Source: Isoetes taiwanensis
Taxonomy: Eukaryota; Streptophyta; Lycopodiopsida; Isoetales; Isoetaceae
DNA: 64,000 nt
Direction: 5' to 3'
Assembly (NCBI GenBank): GCA_021234155.1
Contig: JAJEKV010000183.1
Coordinates: forward strand, 1 to 64,000
Shown one piece after another: positions 39,472-58,900 of the stretch. Below the pieces are notes generated by a model. The model was given only the letters and a program-made list of their open reading frames with translations, had not been told where the DNA came from and did not search any database. How positions within the stretch are numbered: position 1 is the first letter of the stretch; the number at the start of each line of letters is the position of its first letter. The translations under genes were made by a program, and so were the position numbers.

Positions 39472-39660
39472 CTTGTAGCTCAATTCAATGGGCTTGTATA
39501 TGCTGTATACATATCACTACAATTTTTTAGACAAATGGTTGCAGATCAGATATCTCCTGACATATTCACTTGTTCTATGTTGATTGATGGTTTTATCAAG
39601 GAGGGCAGTGAGTAGGCTTATGAGTTGCTTCAAGAAATGAAAGTGCATAAACACCATCCT
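39472..39660 (+). pseudogene. PPR protein fragment, 5' part (split by retroelement)
   Basis: The plus frame reads NGLVYAVYISLQFFRQMVAD, then QISPDIFTCSMLIDGFIKEG, then AYELLQEMKVHKHHP. This matches plant PPR motifs (the SPDVFTYS.LI.GFCK.G pattern). A TAG stop sits between SE and AYELL. The frame reaches ATCCT at 39656-39660 and continues at 52832 beyond the retroelement as EIVTCRNFIEAL. PPR proteins bind RNA in organelles. The upstream part of the gene is not recognisable in this window, and the internal stop suggests decay or a read error. Confidence 0.8.
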
Positions 39661-41284
39661 TGTGACATTCCCTGAATATATACGACCCCCGGCCGTATAC
39701 ATACGGGGACTTTCCCCTCCCATGGCGACCATCTCGCCATGAGCAGGGCCCTCCGTCTGACCCGGGCCATCTACGTAGAGATGCTCGAGTGAAGGGCACG
39801 GAGGTGTCATTCGGCCCACGCCTTCGATGGGCTCCTACGTCGCGGAAGCATGAATACAAGGGTTAGCACACAGCATAAATCATATATATAAATATCCACC
39901 ACGAAGGGTGGTGCGTCCATCCAAATACCAACGGCAAAGAATGTGCATCTAAACTAAGAAAACACCCCAAACCTCAGGTTCTACCCCGGCTCAGACTCCA
40001 GTGAGGATCGACTAACGACTGGGCCTTAAGAGATCAGCAGACCGAGTCTTGGCATGGCGTTGGCTGGCATAGAACATCGGCTAGGGTTGTCCACTCCATC
40101 CGCCCCTCCTGTGCACACTTTGCAGATGGGTCGATTCACGCTATGGCTTCGCTATAGCCTTCCGGATATGCAGACTCAAGGTATCACCCTTTTTGAGTCT
40201 ACTCCAGGGTTCATGACGCCCCGGTCCGATGAGGCAGGTCAGGGAAGCGTCCCCTTCCAGGATCACAGTGGTTCCATGGGTGAGCTAGAGAATACGTGCC
40301 GCATCAGCGACCCCCGCATCCGTACCCAACTTACTCACCCTAAGTCTACTCAAAGTGCAAGATGCTCCATACGGATCACATCTCTACACCCAGGGAGTGT
40401 CAGACCCATACCCGGCCCTCTACGTGACCGGCTATCAGGCCTAGCCCACTGTAGGAGTCTCAGGAGCCTTTTATGTTCGTGCAAGATCCCACCCCCACTT
40501 CACCACTGTGTCCCTTTTCTAGTGCTAAGCCAGACCATAGCGTCTACGACCCGGTGGTCTCTTGCACACAGGCCGCATCTAATGGGAATATTACAGGGCT
40601 CTATCTAGGAGCATATTATCATACATGAGCTCAGAGGTCTCTACCCCCCCTTTAAGCCCCTGTTTAATGGAAGCTACCGAAATACTTCATAGATACATCA
40701 ACCAATTCCTTAACAGAGCACCATTCATAATTGAAATGTAATCCTACTTACCAAAGAAGGGTTATTCTCAACAAAAGCGATCAGCAAAGAGAGTACTGAA
40801 GTACTATCCTACAATTCACAAGCTAATCTACTACTAACCCATGTTTCGGCTGGAACCGTTATCATGGGGTGCTTCCATGGTGCTGTAGGTAGGGCGGCAG
40901 CAACAGCTAGTGGTTGTTCAGTGATTTTGGTGAGGTCAGCAACAGTGCTTGGGTGCTCAACTGCTCCTTGGGCGCTCAACTGGTTCGATTTTGGCTGATA
41001 CGGGGGTGGTGATCCACCTAATTGGATCCAAATAGTAGTCACCATGCTGGCCAATCGAGTTTGGCCAGGTGGCGCCTTCCCAAACCATAATTGGCTTAAT
41101 TATCCTTCTTAATTATTAATTTCCTTAATCATAGGTTATTATCCTTAATGGTTTAATTAACATAGCTAATTAAATCCCTTTTAGGTCAACCCCCTAGGTT
41201 ACCATACCCCATGGTGGCGTATCTGTACTGGGTGACGTGTCAATGTATTTATACATATACCGTATAAATACTTGGAACGTCACA
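39661..41284 (-). repeat. LTR (3' LTR in element orientation)
   Basis: It is 1624 bp, highly similar to the LTR at 51194-52826, with perfect TGTGAC/GTCACA ends. The main differences cluster at about 40380-40470, where short blocks are replaced or shifted. It is followed on the right by the polypurine tract. Confidence 0.95.
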
Positions 41285-41297
41285 TTCTCCCCTCCTT
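41285..41297 (-). other. Polypurine tract
   Basis: On the minus strand AAGGAGGGGAGAA lies directly before TGTGAC of the 3' LTR, the expected plus-strand primer position. Confidence 0.85.
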
Positions 41298-41863
41298 AGA
41301 ATTAATGCTGTCCTCAGCATTAGGGTTAGATAGACTTATAGGATATGACATTAAAGGAGGAAGGTAATCTCTTATTTCCGAAAGTAATATATATTAAAAC
41401 TTTAAAGTTGAAACAGTTTAGGCACCAAGGTGCATTTTCACATGATTATCATAATCAAAAAGCTCAAGGCCCTAAGTCCAATATCAAAATCCGAGTCACA
41501 AGAAACAAAACATGTAGACAAAATAAAACTGAAGAGTTCGGGCCTCTAACATGGGCAGGTCACGTACTGCTCACTGGCCTGCACATGTCAGTATATCAGT
41601 ATATATAATTAGATTGTGGTTGAAGGGACCACCCCCTTATAATGAAAGAAAACTCTATCTACCAGGAAACCTATCATGTGTAAGGTTTGCAATTCACTGC
41701 AGCATAGGGAATGGTCAAGTTCCCATTGTAGCCGAAATGAACGCGGCCTATCAACTATATGCTCTCCAAGCAAGTCGTGGTCGTGTCAACATTGACAGTA
41801 CACCACGTCCTAGAGAACACAAAGTGATCTCATCATCGGTAACTATTATTATTTACGATGCAT

Positions 41864-43753
41864 CTACCCCTCTAGAGCACTACTCTTGGCAATCAAGCTT
41901 CCAAGCTTACCGCCGGCTGCGGGGTTGATAGCATCGTTGATGGTGCGGCCTTGAGATTCCCGCATGAAGTCCGGATAATGCTTGTCAAGGTCTATCTTCA
42001 TCACCCAAGTAGCATCCTTAACTGGTAAGTGCTTCCACTTAACCAAGTATTGCAACATTTGAGTCCTTCTGGTTTGTTTATATGCTCGATCAAGAAGAGC
42101 TTCAGGCACTATCTCCAGCTGCTCCTCTGTCATTTCGAGGAGGGTAGGGGTATCCAAAACCTCCTCTGGATCAGGGGTGTGTTGTTTCAGAAGACTTACG
42201 TGAAAGACCTTGTGGATCTTCAAGCGGGGCGGCAGATCCAAGCGATATGCCTGCTCTCCAACACGCTCAATAATTTTGAATGGTCCAGCCCATCTGGGTG
42301 CCAACTTCTTGTAGTTGCCAATCTTAAGCTTGGCTTGTTTCACCTTAATCTTAAGCCAAACTGATTCGCCTACCTGAAAAACGCGTGGGGTTCTGTGCTT
42401 GTCGGCTACACTCTTCTGACGACTGCGTGCAGCTAATAAGTAGCCACGAACTTCTTCGACCAGAGCTTGCATCTCCAGGAGGAGTTTTTGAGAAACCTCG
42501 ACTTTAGAAACAGGGTTATGCCATGTGTCTAGAGTAAGACATTGATAACTATAATTTATCATAAAGGGAGACATTCTGGAAGACTCCTGTTTCATGTTGT
42601 TGTAGGCAAACTCGACCAGATAAATATAGTCAGCCCATTGTGATTGCTTACTCCATACATAACGTCTTAGCATATCCTCTATAATGCGATTGGTACGCTC
42701 TGTCTGACCATCTGTTTGAGGATGATATGCCGTACTCATAGCAAGCTTGGTCTGGATGGTGGCAAAGAAATCCTTCCAGAATGCACTTACGAATTTGGGA
42801 TCCCTGTCGGATATAATAACTCGTGGCATTCCGTGTAATCTGAAGATCTCTTTGGCAAATAGCAGAGCAGTATCGAAGGCGGTATCCGTGGTACGACATG
42901 GCACGAAATGAGCCATTTTCGACAATTTGTCGACCACTACCATTAACGCGTCATATCCATGGAGAGTACGTGGAAGACCCACTATGAAATCCATGGTTAT
43001 CACTTCCCATTTAGCGTTGGGCACATCCAGAAGTTGCAACTCGCCTGGAATCCTTAACTGCTCAGCTTTGGTTTGCTGACATACCTGACACTGCTTAATG
43101 TATCTGGCAATATCCTTTTTCATAGAAGGCCAGAAATAACTGGAGCGAATCTTAAAGTAGGTCTTCATAAAACCTGCGTGTCCAGCTATAGGGCTGTTGT
43201 GTGTGTCATGGAGGATTAGCTTATGCACTCCCGAAGTCTCAGGCACACACAGCTTATCTTTGTAATATAACAAGTGGCCCTCTTTCTTATATGCACCAAA
43301 GACTTCCCGCTCCTTATCCGTGCGAGCTTCCTTAGCCAAACTATCCCAAACCTCACAGAACTCAGGATCCGTGGCCAAGGTCTGCTCTATGTACTTCCCA
43401 AACTCACTGGTGAGTGTAGAAATTGCATTAGAATGGGTTCGGGTTACCAAGGGATGGCGTGACAACGCATCCGCAACCACATTGTGCTTGCCAGGCTTGT
43501 ACATAATCTCAAAATCATATTTCTCCAGAAATTCCATCCATCTTCTCTGACGGAGATTGAGATTTGGCTGGGTGGATAAATAACGGAGACTTTGATGGTC
43601 CGTATCCAACTGGAATCTTCTACCAAGAAGGTAGTGTCTCCATATCCGCAGGCCACGGACAACGGCTAGCAATTCCTGATCATGGGTAGGGTATCGCTGC
43701 TCTGTCTCGTTCATTTTCTTTGAATCATAGGCAATAACCCTCCCCTCCTGCAT
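41864..43753 (-). CDS. Pol: RNase H end, integrase and chromodomain
   Basis: This 629-codon frame begins within RNase H ([39 protein letters not shown]). The integrase zinc finger has His182/His185, His192 and Cys222/Cys225. The core carries the DDE triad Asp255 (TMDFIV), Asp316 (IISDRDPKF) and Glu352 (DGQTERTNR), with the standard 35-residue D-E spacing. A GPF-like segment (APRWAGPFKIIERVG) follows. The C-terminus has a chromodomain at about 546-596 (LLDRAYKQ, QYLVKWKHLP, ATWVMK, HYPDF). Known chromodomains of this class can steer integration to methylated-H3 chromatin. The core is intact in this copy. A one-base shift near 43765 separates it from the RT frame. Confidence 0.95.
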   Translation of the reverse strand: MQEGRVIAYDSKKMNETEQRYPTHDQELLAVVRGLRIWRHYLLGRRFQLDTDHQSLRYLSTQPNLNLRQRRWMEFLEKYDFEIMYKPGKHNVVADALSRHPLVTRTHSNAISTLTSEFGKYIEQTLATDPEFCEVWDSLAKEARTDKEREVFGAYKKEGHLLYYKDKLCVPETSGVHKLILHDTHNSPIAGHAGFMKTYFKIRSSYFWPSMKKDIARYIKQCQVCQQTKAEQLRIPGELQLLDVPNAKWEVITMDFIVGLPRTLHGYDALMVVVDKLSKMAHFVPCRTTDTAFDTALLFAKEIFRLHGMPRVIISDRDPKFVSAFWKDFFATIQTKLAMSTAYHPQTDGQTERTNRIIEDMLRRYVWSKQSQWADYIYLVEFAYNNMKQESSRMSPFMINYSYQCLTLDTWHNPVSKVEVSQKLLLEMQALVEEVRGYLLAARSRQKSVADKHRTPRVFQVGESVWLKIKVKQAKLKIGNYKKLAPRWAGPFKIIERVGEQAYRLDLPPRLKIHKVFHVSLLKQHTPDPEEVLDTPTLLEMTEEQLEIVPEALLDRAYKQTRRTQMLQYLVKWKHLPVKDATWVMKIDLDKHYPDFMRESQGRTINDAINPAAGGKLGSLIAKSSALEG

Positions 43754-44604
43754 TAGGACTCCCCGGTGGCAATCTTACTGGCATTCGTTGCCACTAGTTT
43801 ATCCTTTTCCGGATCGGGCAATGTGAGAACTGGTGCTGACGTTAAGGCATCTTTAAGCTGCTGGAAACTCCCCTGAACTTTTGCCTTCCAATGTTCCATC
43901 CAATCCTTCACTTTCTCATGCTTTGTAAGGTTTGTAAGAGGTGCTGCAATCTTTGCAAAATCCTTTACAAATTTCCGATAATATCCTGCTAATCCCAAGA
44001 AACTTCGAACCTCGGAAACATTTCCTGGAATAGGCCATTCCCCTACGGCCTCTATTTTTGCTGGATCTGTAGCAATTCCCTCTGCCGAAATGACATGGCC
44101 CAAATAATCGAACTTCGGAGTGGCAAACTTGCATTTAGAGAACTTGGCAAAGAGCTGATGGCGTCTGAGCTTTTCTAGGGCCAATCGAAGATGTTTCTCA
44201 TGCTCCTGCAGGGTCTTACTATAGATGAAAATGTCGTCAAAGAAAATAACAACAAAGTCATCCAAGTATTGTCGGAAGACATCATTCATTAACCGCATAA
44301 ACGTTGCGGGGGCATTAGTTAATCCAAAAGGCATAACGGTAAACTCATAATGCCCATATCTAGTGCGAAAGGCAAATTTATGAATGTCCTCCTCCTTAAT
44401 CCTTATTTGATGATATCCGGAGCGTAAATCGATCTTTGAGAAAAACTTGGCTCCTTGCAATTGGTCCATTAGATCATCTGCTCTTGGCAAAGCATAGCGA
44501 TTCTTGATGGTATGCTTGTTGAGTTGCCGATAATCAATACACATCCTCAAGGAGCCATCCATTTTCTTAACAAAAGAATAGGGGCCAAAAAAGGCTAAAA
44601 ACAC
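43753..44604 (-). CDS. Pol: reverse transcriptase and start of RNase H
   Basis: The 283-codon frame carries the usual gypsy RT blocks: [44 protein letters not shown], the catalytic box [11 protein letters not shown] (121-131), LGHVIS, and the connection segment [18 protein letters not shown]. The box has Phe in place of the usual Tyr (YxDD to FFDD). The RNase H start has TNAS where the family has a catalytic DAS. These two changes plus the frameshifts at both ends suggest a dead copy or sequence errors. It should be continuous with the protease frame upstream; the join near 44605-44627 is broken. Confidence 0.93.
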
Positions 44605-44626
44605 TAGGACCTAATGAAACCTAGGT

Positions 44627-45652
44627 TTAGTAACTCCTCGGTTGCTTCTTAAGCTCGCCAACTCGAGGACTCATACAGTCATGGGGGCCTTCTTTGGTAG
44701 GCTTAGTACCTGGCTCTAAAGCTATCTCATATTCTACCCCTCTAAAAGGAGGAAGCTTCTGGATCTCATCCGGAAAAAGATCACCAAATTCTCGGAGAAG
44801 ATTAGCAATCCCCTCTGGCAGGGTGTCGATTACTTGCTTCTGCTTAGCATCTGACTCAATGGAGGCAAGTCTAATGACGCAAAGGAGCTTTTCCTTGCGT
44901 ATAGCTTTATCTAACTGCCTGATGGACATAGACTGCATAATAGGGTTGAATGGTTCACCTTTTATAGTTACGTGGGCTCCATTAGCTGCGTTGAAGGTAA
45001 TTTCCCGTTTCCCGCAGTCTATGTTGGCCTTTGCAGATGCCAAGAATTCCATACCGACAATAAGGTCGTATTTGCCAATATCCATCAACTCGCACCCAAA
45101 GCAACCGGTGCACTGCGCAGTACGATCTTGAGATTGATCACGATGGCCATGAGTATGTCTGACTTTACCACTGGCTAGAGTGACAGGCCTCGATCGGGAC
45201 CTCAATGTTTCAAGCTGTAAGACTTGGGCCATTCTAGGAGAAGCAAAATTATGTGTACTTCCCATATCCATAAGAATTATAAAAGGCTTACTATCTACTT
45301 GACCTATGGTGGAAATGACAACAGTGACTTTCGGCATTGCCCGGTTTCTATAGCCGCAAGGATATGAGATGCACCGTGAATGTACTTTCGGGAGCCTCCT
45401 CCTCGGCAAGGTTGTGTTGACTCGAGATCGCCCCCAATCGAGGTCGGCAATGGCCAGCTGGGCAGTCTGCGTGACATAAGGACAATTGTGCATGAAGTGT
45501 CCGGGCCGCATACACCTGTAGCATGCCTTATCTCGACGGAGCTGTTCTCGGGCCTCTTTAGGAATAGACCGTAAGAGGTTAGAACTTCCTTTCTGGACAT
45601 TGTTACGTTTTATCGGGCCGCTTTGAAGGTGACTTTCTTTTCCGGGCGCCAT
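44627..45652 (-). CDS. Gag zinc knuckle and aspartic protease
   Basis: Residues 44-57 form a CCHC knuckle (CYRCMRPGHFMHNC), the nucleic-acid-binding end of gag. An aspartic protease follows with ILMDMGSTHNFAS (129-131 read D-M-G where D-S-G or D-T-G is standard) and a later YDLIVGMEFLAS flap/second-half motif. Near residue 285 the linker to RT starts (REFGDLFPDEIQKLPPFRGV). The frame ends just before RT by a frameshift. A DMG active site would be unusual and may be decay. Confidence 0.9.
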   Translation of the reverse strand: MAPGKESHLQSGPIKRNNVQKGSSNLLRSIPKEAREQLRRDKACYRCMRPGHFMHNCPYVTQTAQLAIADLDWGRSRVNTTLPRRRLPKVHSRCISYPCGYRNRAMPKVTVVISTIGQVDSKPFIILMDMGSTHNFASPRMAQVLQLETLRSRSRPVTLASGKVRHTHGHRDQSQDRTAQCTGCFGCELMDIGKYDLIVGMEFLASAKANIDCGKREITFNAANGAHVTIKGEPFNPIMQSMSIRQLDKAIRKEKLLCVIRLASIESDAKQKQVIDTLPEGIANLLREFGDLFPDEIQKLPPFRGVEYEIALEPGTKPTKEGPHDCMSPRVGELKKQPRSY

Positions 45653-46600
45653 AAGAGTTCTCCGAGAGGGCCCCGGACTTGGCGAAGCCGGGGTTTGTAA
45701 GGTGTGGTGGGCCGTGGTAGGCAGTAAGGAGCAGGGAGCGGATAATCGGGTTCCTTGGTGTGTCCTCCTCGAGGCTCAATGCCTTAGCCTCACCTTCATG
45801 AACCGATTTTGGTCTATGGCCTTAACCATTCGTTTAATTGATGGGGCCAACCCTTCAATGTAGCCTTCCATCGCCCTCTTTTTCATTCATACCGGTACAT
45901 ACGACCTCAAAGCATAAATTCATCGGTGTAGGCACGACCGACATACCCTTCTGCTCTAACCCGTAGAAGGTCTGAATTTGTTGGCATTTTGCGCATCGAG
46001 GCACATAATGCGACTTAAAAAGCTTTTGCAAACTTTTTGAACTTGCACCGCTTCTATCCGGATGCTTGGCTCTAGCATAGCCCTTCCACCAAATACAGGC
46101 TCCCCGAAGGTTTGTGGTAGCAACCTTTCTCAGATCCTTTTTCGTCATGCCATAGGACTTCCCAAACTCCTTCATTTAGGTCCAACCAGGACTCGTGATT
46201 CAGGTCGCTCTAGATTTCCCATCAAACCGGGCGGTTTCCTATTCTTTCATATACTAGTTATGGTTGTATCAACCGTCTTGTGGTATTCCTTATCCCGGGG
46301 CTTTGCATGGTCACCCGGTGCATCTAATTTTAAGATAGGAAGTGGCTGATTGTGAGGAGGTGGTGCTATTCCTAGAGGAACTGCGACGACGTTTAGAACG
46401 GGACCTTCTTTGTGTAATGTGGTCGGTTTGGTTTCAGTGGAGATGGTCGCCGCATGGTGCAGCGAACTTGGCGATTCTTGAGGCGAAGGTAACTCCGGTC
46501 CGATTTTTCGGTGTATCTTTGTGGTGGGTTGGAATGCAACACATAAGCCTGTAACTCGCCTAATTGTCTTTTCATTAACATCAGTTCCTGTTCAGGTGTT
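45640..46600 (-). pseudogene. Gag (Retrotrans_gag domain), frameshifted
   Basis: Minus-strand pieces give an entry ASRLTPEQELMLMKRQLGEL, then the capsid-like core with DLRKVATTNLRGACIWWKGY, LQKLFKSHYVP and FYGLEQKGMSVV, and last the approach to the zinc knuckle at 45652. The WW and FY.L.QG.MSV positions match the gag family. At least four frame changes are needed to read through. The start codon is not certain. Confidence 0.75.
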
Positions 46601-46924
46601 AGCCTACTGGCATTCGAGGGCGTCTGCCAGGCGGCGTTGCGTGCACCGTCTATATCGAGCACACATGAAAGTATAAGCAGAATTATAGTAACATAAAGTC
46701 TCACAGAAATATCATTTCGGATAGGGTAGAGAGAGATTACAAGAAAAAGTACGATGGTAAAGATTCTTATTACAAGTGAAAACTGCCATTCCATTAAAGT
46801 TCCGTACATTGATGGTAACACAAGTTGATACAAAGATACAATACAAGGACAAACATTTATACATTGGAGATTGAAAGTTCAACTCACATATAGCATAAAC
46901 AAAACCAAACTAAAGAGACCGGCC

Positions 46925-47413
46925 CTAGGGGTTCGCAAATGGGTAGAGGATTGAGTAGCGAACACTTTCACGTACAGCCCTAACGAGCTTGTAACGTGCC
47001 CAGGCCTGAACGATAACAGGTTGGTAATCGAGCGTTGGGCTAATAATAAGGAGATTGAAAAGCCTCCTTAAAGCATAGAAGATTTGCCACAGGTGGTCGT
47101 TGGCATCCTCGAAAGCTTCGTGCCTGGACATATCCCAATAGTCCCATGTGTGGCGAAGAGTTTGCTTCAGGTCCTCGTAGGCTCGTTCCCTGAGAATGCT
47201 AACTATCTCCATCCCCTTGGCTGGATCATAGGACTCCCCTGGTGGTGCAGGTTCTATCTCATAACCTTCGTCCCATTCCGGGTACTCCCCATATCTTTGG
47301 CCATAATCCTGTTCTGGCGGCCCTGGATCATCTCTCCTTATCAGATCGGTAATCATCTCCTCATATTCTTCGAGTGTTTCTTCTGTAAGACGATAAAAAT
47401 GAATATAGAACAT
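46925..47413 (-). CDS. Accessory ORF of the gypsy element, unidentified acidic protein
   Basis: The open frame of up to 162 codons reads LTEETLEEYEEMITDLIRRD, then a Pro/Glu/Tyr-rich segment (PEWDEGYEIEPAPPGES), then a likely helical half (LKQTLRHTWDYWDMSRHEAF; DHLWQIFYALRRLFNLLI; YKLVRAVRESVRYSILYPF). A good splice acceptor (TTTATCGTCTTACAG) sits right before the LTEE...segment, so it could be an exon. It lies between the H3-like ORF and gag on the same strand. I know no related family. Confidence 0.55.
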   Translation of the reverse strand: MFYIHFYRLTEETLEEYEEMITDLIRRDDPGPPEQDYGQRYGEYPEWDEGYEIEPAPPGESYDPAKGMEIVSILRERAYEDLKQTLRHTWDYWDMSRHEAFEDANDHLWQIFYALRRLFNLLIISPTLDYQPVIVQAWARYKLVRAVRESVRYSILYPFANP

Positions 47414-47764
47414 TGAACAATTTCGTTATGCCCTAAACTCTAACAGATAGAAGAACACATCATGGAAGAGAACAATCTTAATTGTATTCATTGAGACAAT
47501 AGTCACAATTGATAAAAAGATGGTATATCATAACTATAGAATGGCTAGAAATTGCCACCAAAATCCTACATCCATACGCAATACAAAATGCGTAATACAA
47601 TTATTTAAGAGCTAGGTCCTCCCTCTTCATTCGTAGACCGAGGAGGTAGTGGCGCTGGGCCGGGTGTCGAAAGCAGAGTCACCCCTGGGTCTCTTGGGCG
47701 TACCGCAATGGAAGCAACCTCTGGCGGATAAGCAACAGCCAATGGGGCTGCCGTAAGGAGCTTC

Positions 47765-48112
47765 ATGCTCATCCTCATGGATCAATACGTTGAGGATGAA
47801 ACTTTGCCTGTAGAGAAAGGCAAACTCCCTGAATCTTCCGAGGAGGGAGAAGATGAGCATATAGGTATGGGCGACTTCGCCCGTTGGAAGCAGTTAGCAG
47901 AGGAGATGCCACTCACGGGGAACAAGCCAGACGCTTGTCGGGCTGGGCGCCCTTCGGTTGTGTATCACCAAGGGCAAGAATATCTTCTCTTGGATGATAT
48001 CATCTGGACCTATCATATGGTGGCCGTGTTTAAGCGCCGGCGTAAGGACCATGTGCTCTATGAGCTAGCGGAGTATTGTATGGACGATTTCATCGACTTC
48101 GGCTCCTATTGA
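47765..48112 (+). CDS. Antisense accessory ORF in the gypsy element, unidentified
   Basis: On the strand opposite to pol, a 115-codon frame reads MLILMDQYVEDETLPVEKGK, then an acidic SSEEGEDEHIG part, then a folded-looking part (YHQGQEYLLLDDIIWTYHMV; FKRRRKDHVLYELAEYCMDD). The composition is more protein-like than the minus strand here, which has stops. Further plus-strand coding-like pieces follow to about 48860, for example an acidic stretch near 48280-48420 (LKEEQQELKEEEVPMDLDKE). Antisense ORFs are known in some other large plant gypsy lineages, but I see no similarity to those. Confidence 0.45.
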   Translation: MLILMDQYVEDETLPVEKGKLPESSEEGEDEHIGMGDFARWKQLAEEMPLTGNKPDACRAGRPSVVYHQGQEYLLLDDIIWTYHMVAVFKRRRKDHVLYELAEYCMDDFIDFGSY

Positions 48113-49204
48113 GCTTCCAGGAGGTGCAAGAGATTACTCCGATTCCGACAGACACCATAGAGCCGGTGAAACTTTGCTCACGGCTTGAACCGGTGATGCA
48201 GGATCCGCCCCTCACCATCATGGATGCCTTTACACGCCTATGGGACCTCATGTTCCCAACATTAATATGGTTGAGGTTCCCTCCTATTAGGATGAGGAAG
48301 GAGAGGATCTATACCATAATCATGCTCATCTGAAGGAAGAGCAGCAAGAACTCAAGGAAGAAGAAGTCCCTATGGACTTAGACAAGGAGGTGGCCACGTC
48401 AGAGACCCCGCAAGGGAAGGTATTGGGAAACCACCTTACCCAGCTTCTTCTTATCAGCCTTCGACAGGGCAGGGGCAAGTTCTTTTTATAGCCCGAGATT
48501 TAGGGCCGAGGTGAAGCTTCATGGTGGACCTCCGCGGCTCTCTCCACATTGGTCGGGGCACAAGAAGCTTCCCTATCGTACGTTCACTTATGTACTCGTA
48601 CGACGGGATCTTGCCCTGACGGCCTTGGGGCAAGACATTGCACCCTGGATGGCTAGGGCGAAGGCAACCTCAAGATATTGTCGCCCTCGATCCGCACAAC
48701 GGCGTGTGTTTGCCCCATCTCGAGCTTTCCTTTCAAAGACATCATACTCATGGGTGTAAGCCCCCTAACATATCGGGGACTACCTCCCGTTCTAGATACA
48801 ATTGGGAGGATCCCCAAGAGGGATACACAAAGGAAGCATCTCCTCCATGTAAAGTCTAAAACCGGCATAACTGGGTGCCATTTGCATATTAGTGATGAGG
48901 TCTAGGCAGCGGCATAGCAAAAGGGGCATAACAGTCGAAGGGCACTTGCGGATCCCAATGCTCTCCGATCTTGATACCATGCAAGAAGGTCGATGGTCGC
49001 CATGGGCTTAGAAGGAGGAGGAAGCAAGAAAAACAGATATGACAAATGAAATGAAACTTTAAAGATCCTTTTTAACCCTTTTTATTATGCCGACGTCCGG
49101 CATTTTCAGATTTAACACAAAATAAAAGGTTCTTAATACAAAACAAAAAGTTTTTATTAAATCTCAAAAAAAATATTTACAATGCGGAAACTCAGCAAAA
49201 TATG
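48113..49204. other. Internal spacer of the gypsy element
   Basis: Plus-strand coding-like pieces run to about 48860 in shifting frames (GLGARHCTLDG; LDPHNGVCLPHLELSF). The last 300 bases before the H3-like stop are AT-rich and show no gene. Confidence 0.4.
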
Positions 49205-50424
49205 CTAAGGATGCTCCCCCCGAATCCTGCGGGCGAGGGCTAAATCCTTAGGCATGATGGTGACCCTCTTTGCGTGGATTGCGCAAAGATTGGCATCACC
49301 AAAAAGTGCCACTAGATAGGCCTCCGCAGCCTCTTGGAGTGCCAAAATGGCAAAAGTCTGGAAGCGGAGGTCGGTCTTGAACTCCTGGGCAATCTCAACT
49401 TCTGAAACTTACGGATCTCCCGTAAGGCGACAGTGCCGGGTCGGTACTGATGGGGTTTCCTCTGTGGAGCAGGGTTAGGAGGCGGCCCCCTTTGTGCAGG
49501 CACAGTCTTGGCCCCAACATGGGGTCGGGACGCATCCACCCGCTCCTGCCTCCGACTGGAGCTCGCGTTCTTGCCAAAAGCGCCGACAGTCCTTAACTTT
49601 TTCTTGTATTGACTGCCGGACTTCCGGGCGACGGCCTTCCTCCGGTGCTTCACCGTCGTATGCTCTGTTGGGGTTGGGCCCTGCCCACTCCCAGATGCCC
49701 CTTCCCCCTGTGGGTTCGGCTGGTCTTGCCGAGCCTTCTCCTCCTTCTCCCGTTGGATCCTCTCCTGCTCTTCCCGGAACTCCTGGGCTCTCCTAAGGTC
49801 TTCTTCAACCTGAGCATAATGTTGTGCTACGCTCCGGCGAAGAAGTTCAGCGTGGTACCAGTTGGGCCGCTGACTCATATCAATCTGGATGGTTATTAAA
49901 TAATCAATGCTGATATCAGGGATCTTCCCCCATATGAAGCTGCGGGAATCCTCATCCCATCGGTATGGGGGAATCTCGATGGCCCTGCCATCTATAACGG
50001 CAACGCCATCCCCCAGGTACCGATATTCCCTACCCCGAGCCGCCGTATCGGCTCGTTCTATCTCACGACGATCATCCTCCCTGGCCAAGTTTCTGATGCG
50101 GTCGGCCTCGTCCCTTATGTCCCCCTCCTCGGTGTGTCCTTCACATTCGGGAGGGTAGAATTTAATCAGCATCATGACCAAGTCAGGTTGCTCGGCCATG
50201 GTGTAAGGGAGCCGGCGGAGGTTCAGTCGGATCAAGAATGGCTCCGAGAAGTGGTAAATGGGATAGGGGATCCTATCATTGTTCTCAAATCTGTTTACTA
50301 GCTCGTCTAGGAGTATGTCAATCAAAGTAGGGTCGGTAGCCATATTCTGAGTGATCAAAGCGTAGATCTGGGCTATAGTAAGGGTAGTGGGGTCCGGAGC
50401 ACTTTTGGTGTTGGCCATGGCCAT
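49205..50424 (-). CDS. Accessory ORF: novel N-domain fused to a histone H3-like domain
   Basis: Start ATG ([14 protein letters not shown]) is at 50424; the stop (TAG) is at 49207-49205. Residues 1-200 are an unrecognised domain ([60 protein letters not shown]). Residues 200-232 are a charged coiled coil, then a Gly/Pro linker. From 258 a basic tail has [17 protein letters not shown], keeping the ARKS motif of the H3 tail. Residues 323-342 read [20 protein letters not shown], the start of the H3 fold. Here about 46 nt are missing (the STELLIRKLPFQRLVR part) with a frame change at 49397. The other frame continues [44 protein letters not shown] and ARRIRGEHP. Loop 1 is canonical-H3-like, not CENH3-like. 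The ORF lies between PBS and gag. The deletion makes this copy non-functional as a histone fold. Confidence 0.85.
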
Positions 50425-51179
50425 GGCGCTAGGGTCTAGGAGGACAGGCGGTAAGGCGCTTGCGGCTAGGGAAGTGGTAACGAAGGCGCTAGCTATAGGG
50501 TTAGCGAGGCACAAGGGCGAAGAAGCAGGGTCAGATCTGGCGGCGATGGCGGGAGTCGGTTCCGGCGGGCAAAGGCGCTGAAGGCAAGGCGGAAAGGAAA
50601 AACTATAACGGCCAGTTAACTTTTGAATTTTTTAAAATTTTTCTTATTAACTTTTTATTTTTATTTTTTTTTATTATAAAATCCTTATATGGCGGAAATA
50701 GCGCCGAGGGCATTCTACGCGCTCCCACCGCGACTGGGGGTCGTCGAAAAGCAAGCGGCGCCCGGGTTGACTTTCGGGCCCGCGTTGACTCACGACGGTA
50801 CGGTCGGGCGCCGAGTGCATTTTTGGCTCTCCCACCTCGACTGCAAGGCGACAAAAATCAAGCGGCGCCCGAGTTGACTTTCGGGCCTTCCCTTGACCAT
50901 TTTTCCGCCAGCGACGACTGTCCTAGGGTATTTGGGGTACGCCCGATCCAATGGAACCACTTTCTCCTTCATTTAAACTACCTACAAAAATTTATAACCC
51001 CTCCAAACTTGGGGCCTCCAGTCGCCCTAACTTCTTTAAACCTACAATTTCTTACTTTAACCTAACACAAAGCCAAGCATCAAAGAGGACTAAGCAACAC
51101 TCTAGATTAGCCTCCTCCTAACTAACGAACTACGAGTTAGGGTTTGGCCAGTGCTATGATTTCGAGCAACCGAAATCAC
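50425..51179 (-). other. Leader between PBS and accessory ORF
   Basis: The stretch is about 750 bases with no ORF of note. It holds a ~107 bp tandem duplication (AAGCGGCGCCC(G/A)GGTTGACT in both copies, 50727-50887) and an AT-rich tract at 50620-50690. Confidence 0.6.
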
Positions 51180-51192
51180 GGCTCTGATACCA
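51180..51192 (-). other. Primer binding site for initiator tRNA-Met
   Basis: One base inside the 5' LTR end, the minus strand reads TGGTATCAGAGCC, the standard plant PBS. This fixes the element's orientation. Confidence 0.95.
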
Positions 51193-51193
51193 C

Positions 51194-52826
51194 TGTGACG
51201 TTCCCTGAATATATACGACCCCCGGCCGTATACATACGGGGACTTTCCCCTCCCATGGCGACCATCTCGCCATGAGTAGGGCCCTCCGTCTGACCCGGGC
51301 CATCTACGTAGAGATGCTCGAGTGAAGGGCATGGAGGTGTCATTCGGCCCATGCCTTCGATGGGCTCCTACGTCGCGGAAGCATGAATACAAGGGTTAGC
51401 ACACAGCATAAATCATATATATAAATATCCACCACGAAGGGTGGCGCGTCCATCCAAATACCAACGGCAAAGAATGTGCATCTAAAATAAGAAAACACCC
51501 CAAACCTCAGGTTCTACCACGGCTCAGACTCCAGTGGGGATCGACTGACGGCTGGGCCTCAAGAGATCAGCAGACCGAGTCTTGGCATGGCGTTGGCTGG
51601 CATAGAACATCGGCTAGGGTTGTCCACTCCATCCCCTCTCCCCGTGCACACTTTGCGGATGGGTCGATTCACGCTATGGCTTCGCTATAGCCTTCCGGAC
51701 ACGCAGACTCAAGGTATCACCCTTTTCAGTCTATTCCGGGGTTCATGACGCCCCGGTCCGATGAGGCAGTCGGGGAAGCGCCCCTTCCAGGATCCGCGAT
51801 GGTTCCATGGGTGAGCTAGAGAATACGTGCCGCATCAGCGACCCCCGCATCCGTACCCAACTTACTCACCCTAAATCTACTCAAAGTGCAAGATGCTCCA
51901 TACGGATCACATCTCTACACCTAGGGAGTGTCGGACCCATACCCGCCCTCACGCGGACCCAGGGCCATCGTGCCTAGCCCAGCCTTGTAGGAGTCTCGGG
52001 AGCCTTTTATGTTCGTGCAAGACCCCACCCCCACTTCACCTTTGTGTCCCTTTTCCGGTGCTAAGCCGGACCATAGCGTATCGACCTCTAAGTGGTCTCT
52101 TGCACACAGCCGCGATCTAATGGGAATATTACTGGGGCTCTATCTAGGAGCATATTATCATACATGAGCTCAGAGGTCTCAACCCCCCCTTTAAGCCCCT
52201 GTTTAATGGAAGCTACCGAAATACTTCATAGATACATCAACCAATTCCTTAACAGAGCACCATTCATAATTGAAATGTAATCCTACTTACCAGAGAAGGG
52301 TTATTCTCAACAAAAGCGATCAGCAAAGAGAGTACTGAAGTACTATCCTACAATTCACAAGCTAATCTACTACTAACCCGTGTTTCGGCTGGAACCGTTA
52401 TCATGGGGTGCTTCCATGTCTTTGTAGGTAGGGCGGCAAAGAAAATGACTAGTGGTTGTTCAGTGATTTTGGTGAGGTCAGCAACAGTGCTTGGGCGCTC
52501 AACTGCTCCTTGGGCGCTCAACTGGTTCGATTTTGGCTGATACGGGGGTGGTGATCCACCTAATTGGATCCAAATAGTAGTCACTATGCTGGCCAATCGA
52601 GTTTGGCCAGGTGGCGCCTTCCCAAACCATAATTGGCTTAATTATCCTTCTTAATTATTAATTTCCTTAATCATAGGTTATTATCCTTAATGGTTTAATT
52701 AACATAGCTAATTAAATCCCTTTTAGGTCAACCCCCTAGGTTACCATACCCCATGGTGGTGTATCTGTACTGGGTGACGTGTCAATGTATTTATACATAT
52801 ACCGTATAAATACTTGGAACGTCACA
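51194..52826 (-). repeat. LTR (5' LTR in element orientation)
   Basis: It is 1633 bp, with ends TGTGACGTTCC and GGAACGTCACA. It pairs with the LTR at 39661-41284. In the minus orientation it would hold the element's promoter. Confidence 0.95.
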
Positions 52827-52831
52827 ATCCT

Positions 52832-53176
52832 GAGATTGTTACTTGCAGAAACTTTATTGAAGCTCTTTATGATAAAGACCGTATTCAAAATGCAGTCGAG
52901 GTAATGGAAGGTATGTTGAGACATCATATTATTCCAGAAGTAAATATATGGATCAAACTTAGTGGTAGGCTCTGCAAAATCGGGCAAACTAAGGAAACTG
53001 TGGCTTTGATTGAATTGTTGATAAAAGTGGAGGCCAAGAACTATAATGATATTTCTAAATTGGTAAATGAGTCCTGCAAGAAAAACGTGGCTATTAATAT
53101 GCATTTGTTATTGCCCAAGATGGCTGAACAGGAAGGTAACGCATCTGAAGCAACATGTAATGCATTAGTTACATAA
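52832..53176 (+). pseudogene. PPR protein fragment, 3' part with stop
   Basis: The frame continues the fragment that ends at 39660: EIVTCRNFIEALYDKDRIQN, AVEVMEGMLRHHIIPEVNIW, then KLSGRLCKIGQTKETVALIE, matching two further PPR motifs (P...T...LI..LC...R...A..V...M). A non-PPR C-terminal tail ends SEATCNALVT and stop. The reading frame across the insertion is restored exactly if the retroelement and one ATCCT copy are ignored, showing that the gene was whole here before insertion. The gene with the insert cannot encode its normal product. Confidence 0.82.
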
Positions 53177-56036: not shown

Positions 56037-58900
56037 GATTCTTGCAAGATCACGGGATATTGTAGCTTTTGAACCCGTGATTGGGTTGCCTTCACAAGCG
56101 ATGGTCAAGCATGCAATTTTAGAAAACCTTAAAGATGGATTGGAAGAGGTAAAATGCTCTAATAGTGGTGATAAATTGGCCGCCAAGCACTCGGTTTATC
56201 AATGGTTGTTGGGAAAAATGGTGATTTGAAGCAAAAGGGAATTGCTTGCAAGATGCTCAAATGCCATCCCCGAAATCTTTCATATGCTGCTAGCAGAAGA
56301 AAGAGAATGGCAATTGCTGGTTCAAACATTTGGGCATTAGCAGGCAGGAAGGCTAGATCTGATCGTTTGGATGAAGAAACCAAGCTAAAAGTCATCCAGT
56401 TCTGGCTTAACAACACCAAGGTTTCACCAAAGTACAGGGATGTGAGGAAAAAAAGAAGCGAGGCAATCCAGTATCTTGACATTCCTCAGGTATTAAAGCT
56501 TTTGTCAAAGAAACTATTACATTTCAGTTTCTTTGTTGTTTTCATGTACATTTTCATGCACATATGTGAACTCCTCTACTAATCTTAGTTTACTTGCTTT
56601 GATGTAACCTTTTCGGTCTGTTTTGCTTACTGTATTATACATGTAAATGAGGTTTATGGGGTCATCTACTTGCCCTTGGAAGTATTTCATGTATATTATG
56701 TGATATATATGTACATAGTGTAAGGATGTAAGATTAAATGTGCCGAAGTGAACTCCTTTGCCAATCTTAGTTTACTTGCTTTGATGTAGCCTTTTCGGTC
56801 TGTTTTACTTAATGTATTATACATGTAAATGAGGTTTATGGGGTCATCTACTTGCTCTTGGAAGTATTTCATGTATAATATGTGATATATATGTACATAG
56901 TGTAAGGATGTAGGATTAAATGTGCTATAAATTGATACTATACATAATCTACTGTACATATGTCTTGAATATGTCTTGATTCAATCAAATCTTTTACATG
57001 TACAACCGATATGTAACTTGGTATACATAGTATTTCTTACTTATGTCTTCGGATATGTAAGGTATTCAATGCACGATCTTCTCCAACTTACCTATTTTCT
57101 TTTTGCAATGTGCAGGCCGAAATTTGTATGAGCGGTTTGTGGAGGAGAATCCAGATGCGAGATGTTGGTATTAGAATGTTGAATACCGAAACCAAGTTGC
57201 ATAAGGAAATTGAAGGAGAGAAACACTTGTTGTTGTGTCAAGCATGAACAAGCAAGAGAATTTCGAGAAAAGCTTTCAACTCTATGAGGAAAGTTTCACA
57301 TAAATTGCAGTTGCAATTGTGATGTATGTCTTTGTTGGTACACATGATGGGGTTTGTCGGGCACAAAAGCTTACATTTTGTAATGTTAGCACTCTTTGGA
57401 GAGAAATGGTTTGCCAAAAGAGGAAAGGGAAGAGTGGCACAATCTAAAAGTGCATAAGGGGGATTGTGAAAAATGTGGTAAGCAAAAGATTCCCTTATGT
57501 CCAAAAGAGACCGATCGAGAATAATGAAGATGATGTTAAATGGCGGGCTTCATTGTTATATGGACGAGAAGTCAAGGAAGGGCACTTCTAGAAGACTAAG
57601 ATTGGTGGAGAAGCAAACAGATGCTCCTTTCATGTTATCCGCCATGTTTGATCACATGAAAAAGTTTGTGCATCACAACTTTGCAACTCATTGGCGTGAG
57701 CAAGGAATTTAGGAGAAGCATTGAGTCTAAGAGATGATTCGCGTGATATCAGTAGTAGACTTTGCAGAAAATTACACATTGTAGCCCTTCAAAGAAGTGC
57801 AAATCGAACATTGGAATGAGACGGATCACTATTTTGGTACACATCACTCTCTTCAAGGTAAATGGTAAGATTCTGCGTAAGACTGTTCACTTATATGTTT
57901 TCGATGATAGAAGTCATGACACACATTTTGTACAACATGCATTTCAACTTCATCTTCGGTGGTAGGATCTCACATCGCGGTATCATCTCGTGGTCGGATG
58001 GTTTGTCTTTGCTCAATTCAAATCGAGGTAAGATCATTCTATTTCATATATCAGGTACCATTGTCGCGATGGCATTCGTGTACAATGGAATTTCTTTGGA
58101 TCGGGGCATGGGAAGGGGAACATGATGGAGAATTTTGCCAAGGCCAAGCAACTCTTGGCCGATGAGCAAAGAAGAGAGAGCATGGGATTGAAATAAAGGG
58201 TGCTCATGATGCCCGTGTTGTTTTGAGAAACAAGAAATCTCAAGTTAAGAGGAGTGTATTGGGAAGTGAAGGAGAATTTGAGATTGATGTGTCAAAGCCA
58301 TTTGATGTGCAACCCCTTCCTAGTGTCCAAAGCGGGTTTGTGTATCTTCCATAAGTCCAGGAGGACCCAACCTTCTTGATGGTTAGACCACTATCTTGTT
58401 TTTGCAAAGGTGCTGCATAAACTTTGAATATGTGCATGTGAGTCTATTCAACATTGTGGAAAGTGGACATTGAAGAAGCTAGTCCCATGTGCACATCTTT
58501 GAAGGTATGTAATTGGAATCTAAACCGCAATGTTTGCAAATGAGGTAGAGGAGTTACATGATGTGATCTGGTTTGGTGATAATTTTGCTTCTTTTGCTCT
58601 TCCCGGTAATGAGGAAGATATGTCATACTATGTTCTTGCTTGCACTAGAGAAAAGCATGTATTGGATCAAACAGTCATTGATGATTACAAGAATGAGCAT
58701 CATGCGGTGACGTGATCATATCGGCTTTACTATCATCAGAAATTGCCAAGTTGCCATAACAAATATAAGCTATTGGATGATAGAGAAGTATTGGTGCCGA
58801 TGAGAGTCCTGTTATTGGAGCTAAATTTCCCATGAAGAAGATAAATCACCGGGGTTAAAGGTGCTAGTGCGGCTTTTGCATTGTCGATGATGTGCATGAG
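56037..58900 (+). pseudogene. Transposase-like gene with SDG and GHGKG signatures, intron-containing, decayed
   Basis: Exon 1 ends at 56488 (...AIQYLDIPQ|GTATTA). It carries KQKGIACKMLKCHPRNLSYA, WALAGRKARSDRLDEETKLK and VIQFWLNNTKVSPKYRDV. The intron ends at 57115 (TGCAG). Exon 2 begins with NLYERFVEENPDAR, then cysteine-rich pieces (CSCNCDVCLCW; CEKCGKQKIPLCPKE), then YVFDDRSHDTHFVQHAFQLH, WSDG with FAQFKS, and FFGSGHGKGEHDG. Later comes HDVIWFGDNF-like sequence near 58560. I associate this order of DD(R)..D, WSDG..QFK and GHGKG..DG with a widespread, poorly named plant transposase-like family. Exon 2 has many frame changes. The intron holds a 182 bp tandem duplication. Cut-and-paste transposition is the likely ancestral role; the exact superfamily is not known to me. 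Confidence 0.62.
56568..56931. repeat. 182 bp tandem duplication within the intron
   Basis: Copies start at 56568 and 56750 (GAACTCCT; CTTAGTTTACTTGCTTTGAT; GGGGTCATCTACTTGC) and are about 95% identical by eye, so the duplication is fairly recent. Confidence 0.92.

Follow-up and report, generated by a model that had tools for sequence, protein, structure and literature searches.

The genome of Isoetes taiwanensis contains a family of Ty3/gypsy chromoviruses in which an extra open reading frame upstream of gag, ORF1, joins an orphan N-terminal domain (N-domain) to a histone H3 fold. The family is present in many copies, its H3 domains form a group apart from those of the host, the fold is under purifying selection, and ORF1 has moved between element backbones. 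The reading that we favour, held tentatively at a probability of about 0.42, is that the ORF1 protein, with its H3 fold under purifying selection, enters host nucleosomes and likely helps the chromodomain-bearing element to resist silencing. Plants silence retrotransposons partly through marks on histone H3, and a retrotransposon family that encodes its own selected H3, in an element also bearing a chromodomain, would counter silencing of this kind directly at the molecular level.

The window, that is, the whole stretch of 64,000 nucleotides that was analysed, holds one copy of the element (Table 1). Its LTRs are 5.1% divergent (83 of 1622 sites), and the primer binding site, TGGTATCAGAGC, is presumably of the initiator Met tRNA type. 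A hAT-type DNA transposon is ruled out, the element having LTRs, a primer binding site and a reverse transcriptase (RT) instead. The pol domains follow the order RVP_2, RVT_1, RT_RNaseH, H2C2/rve (PR-RT-RNaseH-integrase) and are spread over several frames; the integrase match (rve) scores 32.3 bits, slightly below the cut-off of 32.6. The C-terminal chromodomain lies above its curated cut-off (33.3 against 25.1 bits) and therefore identifies the element as a chromovirus. Chromoviruses carry a chromodomain in the integrase (PMC9289625). This domain reads histone marks. The Isoetes element has the same backbone, and its family additionally encodes a histone.

Table 1. Features of the element, in window coordinates except for the last row
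Feature	Position	Strand	Basis or remark
Whole LTR retrotransposon, Ty3/gypsy chromovirus, 13.2 kb	39661..52826	-	LTR pair and flanks, Pfam matches of pol
Target duplication ATCCT, 5 bp, perfect	39656-39660 and 52827-52831		directly outside both LTRs
5' LTR	51194..52826	-	direct repeat
Primer binding site TGGTATCAGAGC	51181..51192	-	one base from 5' LTR; read from sequence
Degenerate direct repeat in leader, step about 107 bp	50701..50887	-	
ORF1 (N-domain, linker, basic tail, H3 fold)	49205..50424	-	broken at about 49396
Orphan N-domain of ORF1, about 205 residues	49800..50424, boundary approximate	-	alignment A1
Charged linker and basic tail (VARKSG in window)	49471..49799, boundary approximate	-	
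H3 fold, first piece	49399..49470	-	
H3 fold, second piece, up to stop codon	49205..49399	-	different frame, 64 residues
Remnant of ORF2, second orphan extra ORF	47630..49003, ends approximate	-	
166-aa frame between ORF2 and gag	46925..47425	-	similar frames in L050-L053, L057
gag remnants, zinc knuckle, aspartic protease RVP_2	44627..46700	-	Pfam
Reverse transcriptase RVT_1	43753..44610	-	Pfam
RNase H and integrase	41864..43774	-	Pfam
C-terminal chromodomain PF00385	41963..42109	-	E=4.5e-8
3' LTR	39661..41284	-	direct repeat
ORF2 in L050	L050:5117-6502	+	462 aa from its Met, between H3 ORF and gag

The original prediction, made from this DNA alone, placed an open frame ending in an H3 fold between the primer binding site and gag, and matches to Pfam and the PDB confirm this. 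The 64-residue second piece of the fold matches the Pfam family Histone (PF00125) at E=2.5e-23, and its best PDB matches are H3 chains at about 1e-29. A single open frame of 370 codons occupies 50424-49312 on the minus strand; its last 29 or so codons are out of frame past a deletion. This deletion had also been predicted, at about 46 nt: an alignment with the uninterrupted relative L026 shows 46 nt missing from the window copy at about 49396. The remaining gaps between the two have lengths divisible by three (3, 6 and 21 nt), and the window ORF1 is 82% identical to L026 over 1193 aligned sites. The histone fold of L026 scores 142.2 bits against a Pfam cut-off of 26.4. A further claim, that the basic tail keeps ARKS, holds for the window copy and not for the family as a whole, since ARKS is missing from one class of copies (class a, below) and RKSG is found in only some copies of another (class b); K9-like motifs persist in some copies. 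In all 21 uninterrupted ORF1s the tail sits behind the N-domain and the linker, and the free N-terminal tail ARTKQTARKS is absent.

What is the N-domain? The whole window ORF1 and the N-domain of L010 had no relative in the protein database at E<=0.01. A profile of alignment A1 gave 5261 matches among the 7927 public candidates scored; coverage of the first query is 23-52% in the 120 matches listed, and the six that were read prove to be gene models of canonical H3, either in tandem or merged. Apart from histones, a full-length ORF1 model, which includes the N-domain, had no supported match, either in the PDB or viral.

In the window copy, gag is decayed (weak Pfam match, E 0.073) and the zinc knuckle match is weak; gag of L052, a copy of the window's class, matches Ty3_capsid (1.1e-15). 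A conserved frame, about 165 aa long, lies directly before gag (L050:6650-7183 and its counterpart in the window); it ends in ILYPFANP or similar and, in the window, matched no Pfam family. No obvious ATG lies close to the start of the gag frame, and gag may be spliced or reinitiated. A histone fold with a basic tail, encoded ahead of gag, would suit a role in packaging, in which the H3 fusion would cover the RNA or cDNA of the element, or form chromatin with it, inside particles or on unintegrated DNA. Some giant viruses, according to the accessible part of the literature on them, organise their genomes with their histones in a comparable way. We regard packaging as improbable: a nucleosome also requires H4, H2A and H2B and the H3 fold alone was recognised, while a gag capsid domain (in L052) and a weak zinc knuckle (in the window) are already there.

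Is the H3 fusion peculiar to the window? It had been suggested in advance that other copies of the element be searched for the H3 ORF, that an H3 tree be built and that dN/dS be estimated across copies. The assembly searched comprises 1,658,258,908 bases in 1110 contigs, and all counts from it are lower bounds, 150 of 8705 first-look candidates having been scored in the Pfam Histone search, 136 of 33028 in the RT search and 92 of 6781 in the ORF2 search. Among the 150 scored histone matches, 15 are full-length and of canonical type, and the ten of these that were translated are canonical H3. At least 135 are non-canonical; 38 of them were read, 20 chosen for long frames and 18 of mixed frame length, and every one (38/38) is an element-type H3. 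The 20 chosen for long frames each keep ORF1 open over a single frame of 444-494 residues and, together with L043, bring the uninterrupted ORF1s to 21; these aligned copies thus come from the best matches and were mostly selected for long frames. A primer binding site, with up to one mismatch, lies upstream of ORF1 in 14 of 20 other copies.

A sample blind to H3 was drawn from the RT matches (10 of at least 136, spaced along the second half of the list). Seven of these ten copies have an H3 domain upstream of RT, and in none of the seven is ORF1 intact, owing to frameshifts, stops or a partial ORF; L051 has both ORF1 parts in one frame, with one stop. In L055 and L058, gag only was found, and LTR, primer binding site, ORF1 and ORF2 were not found within the stretch read; in L054, that stretch ends within ORF2, leaving the H3 region outside. 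The presence of H3 in other copies of the element rules out a one-off insertion or a misassembly. The fusion in these copies supports the original proposal, in which an H3-type gene was taken up by an LTR element and is now joined there to a novel N-domain. LTR pairs diverge by 4.9% in L010 (79 of 1596 aligned sites) and by 3.3% in L013 (52 of 1588); L026 had no LTR match within the stretch read.

The 21 ORF1s fall into class a (13 copies), class b (7) and class c (L026, the class of the window copy), so that at least three classes of ORF1 exist. L026 is 44-47% identical to the other ORF1s overall, and the H3 fold differs between classes with a pN of 0.08-0.11. The leader repeat of the window has similar counterparts in all three class b and c leaders read (L013, L015, L026); the 11 class a leaders lack it.

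Have these H3 domains been captured more than once? In the H3 tree, one branch with support of 98/98 separates the 21 element H3s from 10 host and 13 public H3s. The element H3s thus form a single group, and a single capture by the element lineage is likely. The donor was probably an H3 gene of the host, taken up within the lineage of Isoetes taiwanensis, as suggested by E77, which occurs in 10/10 host H3s and 17/21 element H3s, the 13 public H3 units all having D77. A source of the H3.3 type is possible, as judged from one residue: H87 of class b is shared, among the ten host H3s, only with the H3.3-type copy L030. Class a has F87, with F41 in 10 of its 13 copies; Y41 and L90, being common to all ten host H3s, are no guide to an H3.3-type source. 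Among the host copies themselves (L001-L008, L029 and L030), the canonical ones displayed have A31 together with Y41 and L90, and T31 and H87 are seen in L030.

Capture of a centromeric H3 was also considered. CENH3 has a divergent core with a longer loop 1, and it was set apart here by this feature and by comparing the core with host H3. The 95-residue core of the element H3 aligns to host H3 without gaps, at a pN of about 0.1 and with no loop insertion, and CENH3 was rejected as the source.

Purifying selection acts on the H3 fold across the family. Its dN/dS is 0.042 (0.024-0.070) over 78 pairs within class a and 0.013 (0.003-0.029) over 21 pairs within class b, where pairs are non-independent and intervals are codon bootstraps. 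The constraint is about equal to that on RT (0.034 over six pairs in class a, 0.046 over three in class b and 0.086 over three in class c), and the N-domain has within-class values of 0.094 (a) and 0.152 (b). Captured host gene fragments may have no function, as in many transduced genes, and the decay of ORF1 in all seven RT-sampled copies with H3 would fit a mere passenger. This very improbable reading is contradicted by the dN/dS of 0.013-0.042 in the fold by the existence of three diverged classes with uninterrupted members, and by indels that keep the frame.

In the core, 66 of 95 positions are invariant in the 21 copies, and 65 of these agree with a host H3; at positions 86, 105 and 107 the element H3s are unlike every host H3 read. 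C110, H113, R116, D123, R69, R72, R83, K115 and T118, which we take to be H3-H3', H4 and DNA contact sites, are unchanged in 21/21 element H3s. Other positions that are presumably contact sites vary (T107A in 21/21, F104L in 11, K64R in 12, R42K in 7 and R63C in 1), and position 36 is R in 20/21. The H3 part modelled without H4 folds poorly (pLDDT mostly <50). Most of the presumed H3-H3' and H4 surfaces are kept and the tail marks are altered, as would be expected of a decoy. Such a free ORF1 protein would stay out of nucleosomes and weaken silencing across the genome by sequestering H4, H3 chaperones or H3 methyltransferases. However, most of the presumed DNA-contact residues are invariant too, and a decoy would not need them; we think this explanation quite unlikely.

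The H3 fold and the backbone do not share one history. RT dS is 0.59-0.62 between classes as against 0.42-0.55 within them, and in ORF1 the synonymous sites are almost saturated from class to class (pS 0.71-0.85). Over its main part, the window LTR is 82-86% identical to class a and b LTRs and 83% to that of the class c copy L052, that is, no closer to its own class. Class a is a single group in the H3 tree, whereas an RT tree of ten copies splits it, placing L009 and L010 with class c, and L022 and L050 with class b. Forcing class a to be a clade in the RT tree costs 59.8 log-likelihood units and is rejected (p-AU 5e-55), in a test run after an initial RT tree had been viewed; the corresponding tests for class b (p 0.024) and class c (0.075) led to no rejection. 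The RT of L022 lies just 2.3 kb from its H3, which indicates that this copy is rearranged. The conflict between the two trees shows that ORF1 has changed backbones.

ORF1 has probably not travelled alone. The class of ORF2 is that of ORF1 in 4/4 non-query copies (L049, L051, L056 and L057), which suggests that ORF1 and ORF2 were exchanged as one block between leader and gag. ORF2 has at least 93 matches in the genome at 76-100% identity; for at least 35 of these, a scored H3 match is located 251-2065 bases upstream on the same strand, neighbours having been picked by eye against the 150 scored H3 matches and the distances then checked. Its sequence (in L050) has an acidic stretch near residues 295-330. 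No Pfam family was found in the members scanned at E<=0.1, the PDB gave no match below E 0.7, and the structure model is poor (mean pLDDT 41). A resemblance of the ORF2 C-terminus to the end of H3 was dropped (hhalign E 0.41, probability 0.1%). In the window copy, an 880-bp part (47770-48651) is inverted relative to L052 and L057, and ORF2 letters consequently turn up on the plus strand (47732-48112).

The main rival to a role in silencing is an integration tether: the H3 fusion would enter nucleosomes or bind H4, recruit the integration complex and choose the target chromatin together with the integrase chromodomain. The element does have a C-terminal chromodomain that scores above its cut-off, and the constraint on the H3 core resembles that on RT. 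By contrast, the N-domain and ORF2 vary strongly by class while RT is shared among classes, and co-variation would be expected of a tether that works in a shared complex. We consider the tether doubtful. Purifying selection suits a tether or a packaging role equally well, which weakens the anti-silencing reading.

How might the ORF1 protein act against silencing? An H3 that stays nearly unchanged under selection suggests that the element uses it on host chromatin. In the reading that we favour, host H3 chaperones would deposit the ORF1 protein, its H3 part pairing with host H4; once in the nucleosome, the H3 part would hold the N-domain on chromatin. Because the H3 N-terminus is not free in this protein and position 36 is R in 20/21 copies, nucleosomes containing it may carry silencing marks poorly. 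The faster-changing N-domain could then block or redirect the silencing machinery, so that H3 would be a constant delivery module, and the N-domain and ORF2 a variable effector. Entry into nucleosomes and each step beyond selection on the fold are thus predictions from sequence, and the anti-silencing step is proposed by analogy. A more far-reaching version is possible though less probable; here, a private H3 variant would replace host H3 in nucleosomes, escape the normal silencing marks and display exchangeable effector domains of an arms race. As uninterrupted copies of ORF1 exist, a role in chromatin is testable with the protein alone.

How does this family compare with known systems? The chromovirus backbone and gene capture by transposons are known already; a retroelement that keeps a selected histone fused to an orphan domain, and in which this fusion has moved between lineages, appears to be new. 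No retroelement-borne histone was found among the top-ranked titles of the literature on histones in mobile elements, a search covering few subscription journals, and the word histone is absent from the main text of a review that covers additional ORFs of plant LTR elements (PMC7264820). The nearest precedent in the accessible literature is a group of hAT DNA transposons with a captured histone H3 in Dothideomycete fungi, present in tens to hundreds of copies; the H3 copies of P. fijiensis are inactivated by RIP, and the 26 of Pyrenophora, many of them potentially active, are described as a recent event (PMC6710886, available part). These are likewise mobile elements that captured and amplified an H3 coding sequence. 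They are, however, DNA transposons, for which the available part mentions no fused domain, whereas the H3 of the Isoetes retroelement is fused and has been selected across diverged classes.

Plant gypsy lineages that fixed a host-derived extra ORF are known from Phalaenopsis, where Ty3/gypsy elements carry an AlkB-type m6A demethylase that the authors proposed to counter host surveillance (PMC9289625). There, the extra ORF is an RNA demethylase, and in Isoetes it is a histone. The same report, in the part available, describes a screen of 121 angiosperm genomes that found 15 extra domains; histone is not among the nine named, and lycophytes lie outside the screen (PMC9289625).

A parasite histone is also found in bracoviruses. 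CpBV-H4, an H4 that bears an N-terminal tail, becomes part of host nucleosomes and through the tail alters the expression of host genes (PMC5423620, in the accessible part); for the Isoetes H3, nucleosome entry is predicted. CpBV-H4 is an H4 of a polydnavirus in insects, whereas the Isoetes protein is an H3 in an LTR retrotransposon with a far longer N-terminal domain. VANDAL elements are DNA transposons. Those of Arabidopsis encode VANC, which removes silent marks, diversifies fast and binds noncoding tandem repeats in a sequence-specific manner (PMC10398659, available part). As an extra element-encoded protein, VANC may be a functional parallel to ORF1, by analogy; unlike ORF1, it has no histone fold mentioned in that part of the source. 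Histone sequence in a mobile element is likewise seen in a Culex Helentron, whose eight copies contain H4 and H15 superfamily fragments that carry a premature stop, a frameshift and indels (PMC4067079, in part); these are broken H4/H15 fragments and not H3.

Two minor features of the window lie at or beyond the edge of the element. A plus-strand frame (52778-53176) overlaps the edge and resembles, by eye, a pentatricopeptide repeat protein, and a 182-bp unit is present as a tandem pair, 90% identical, at 56544-56907.
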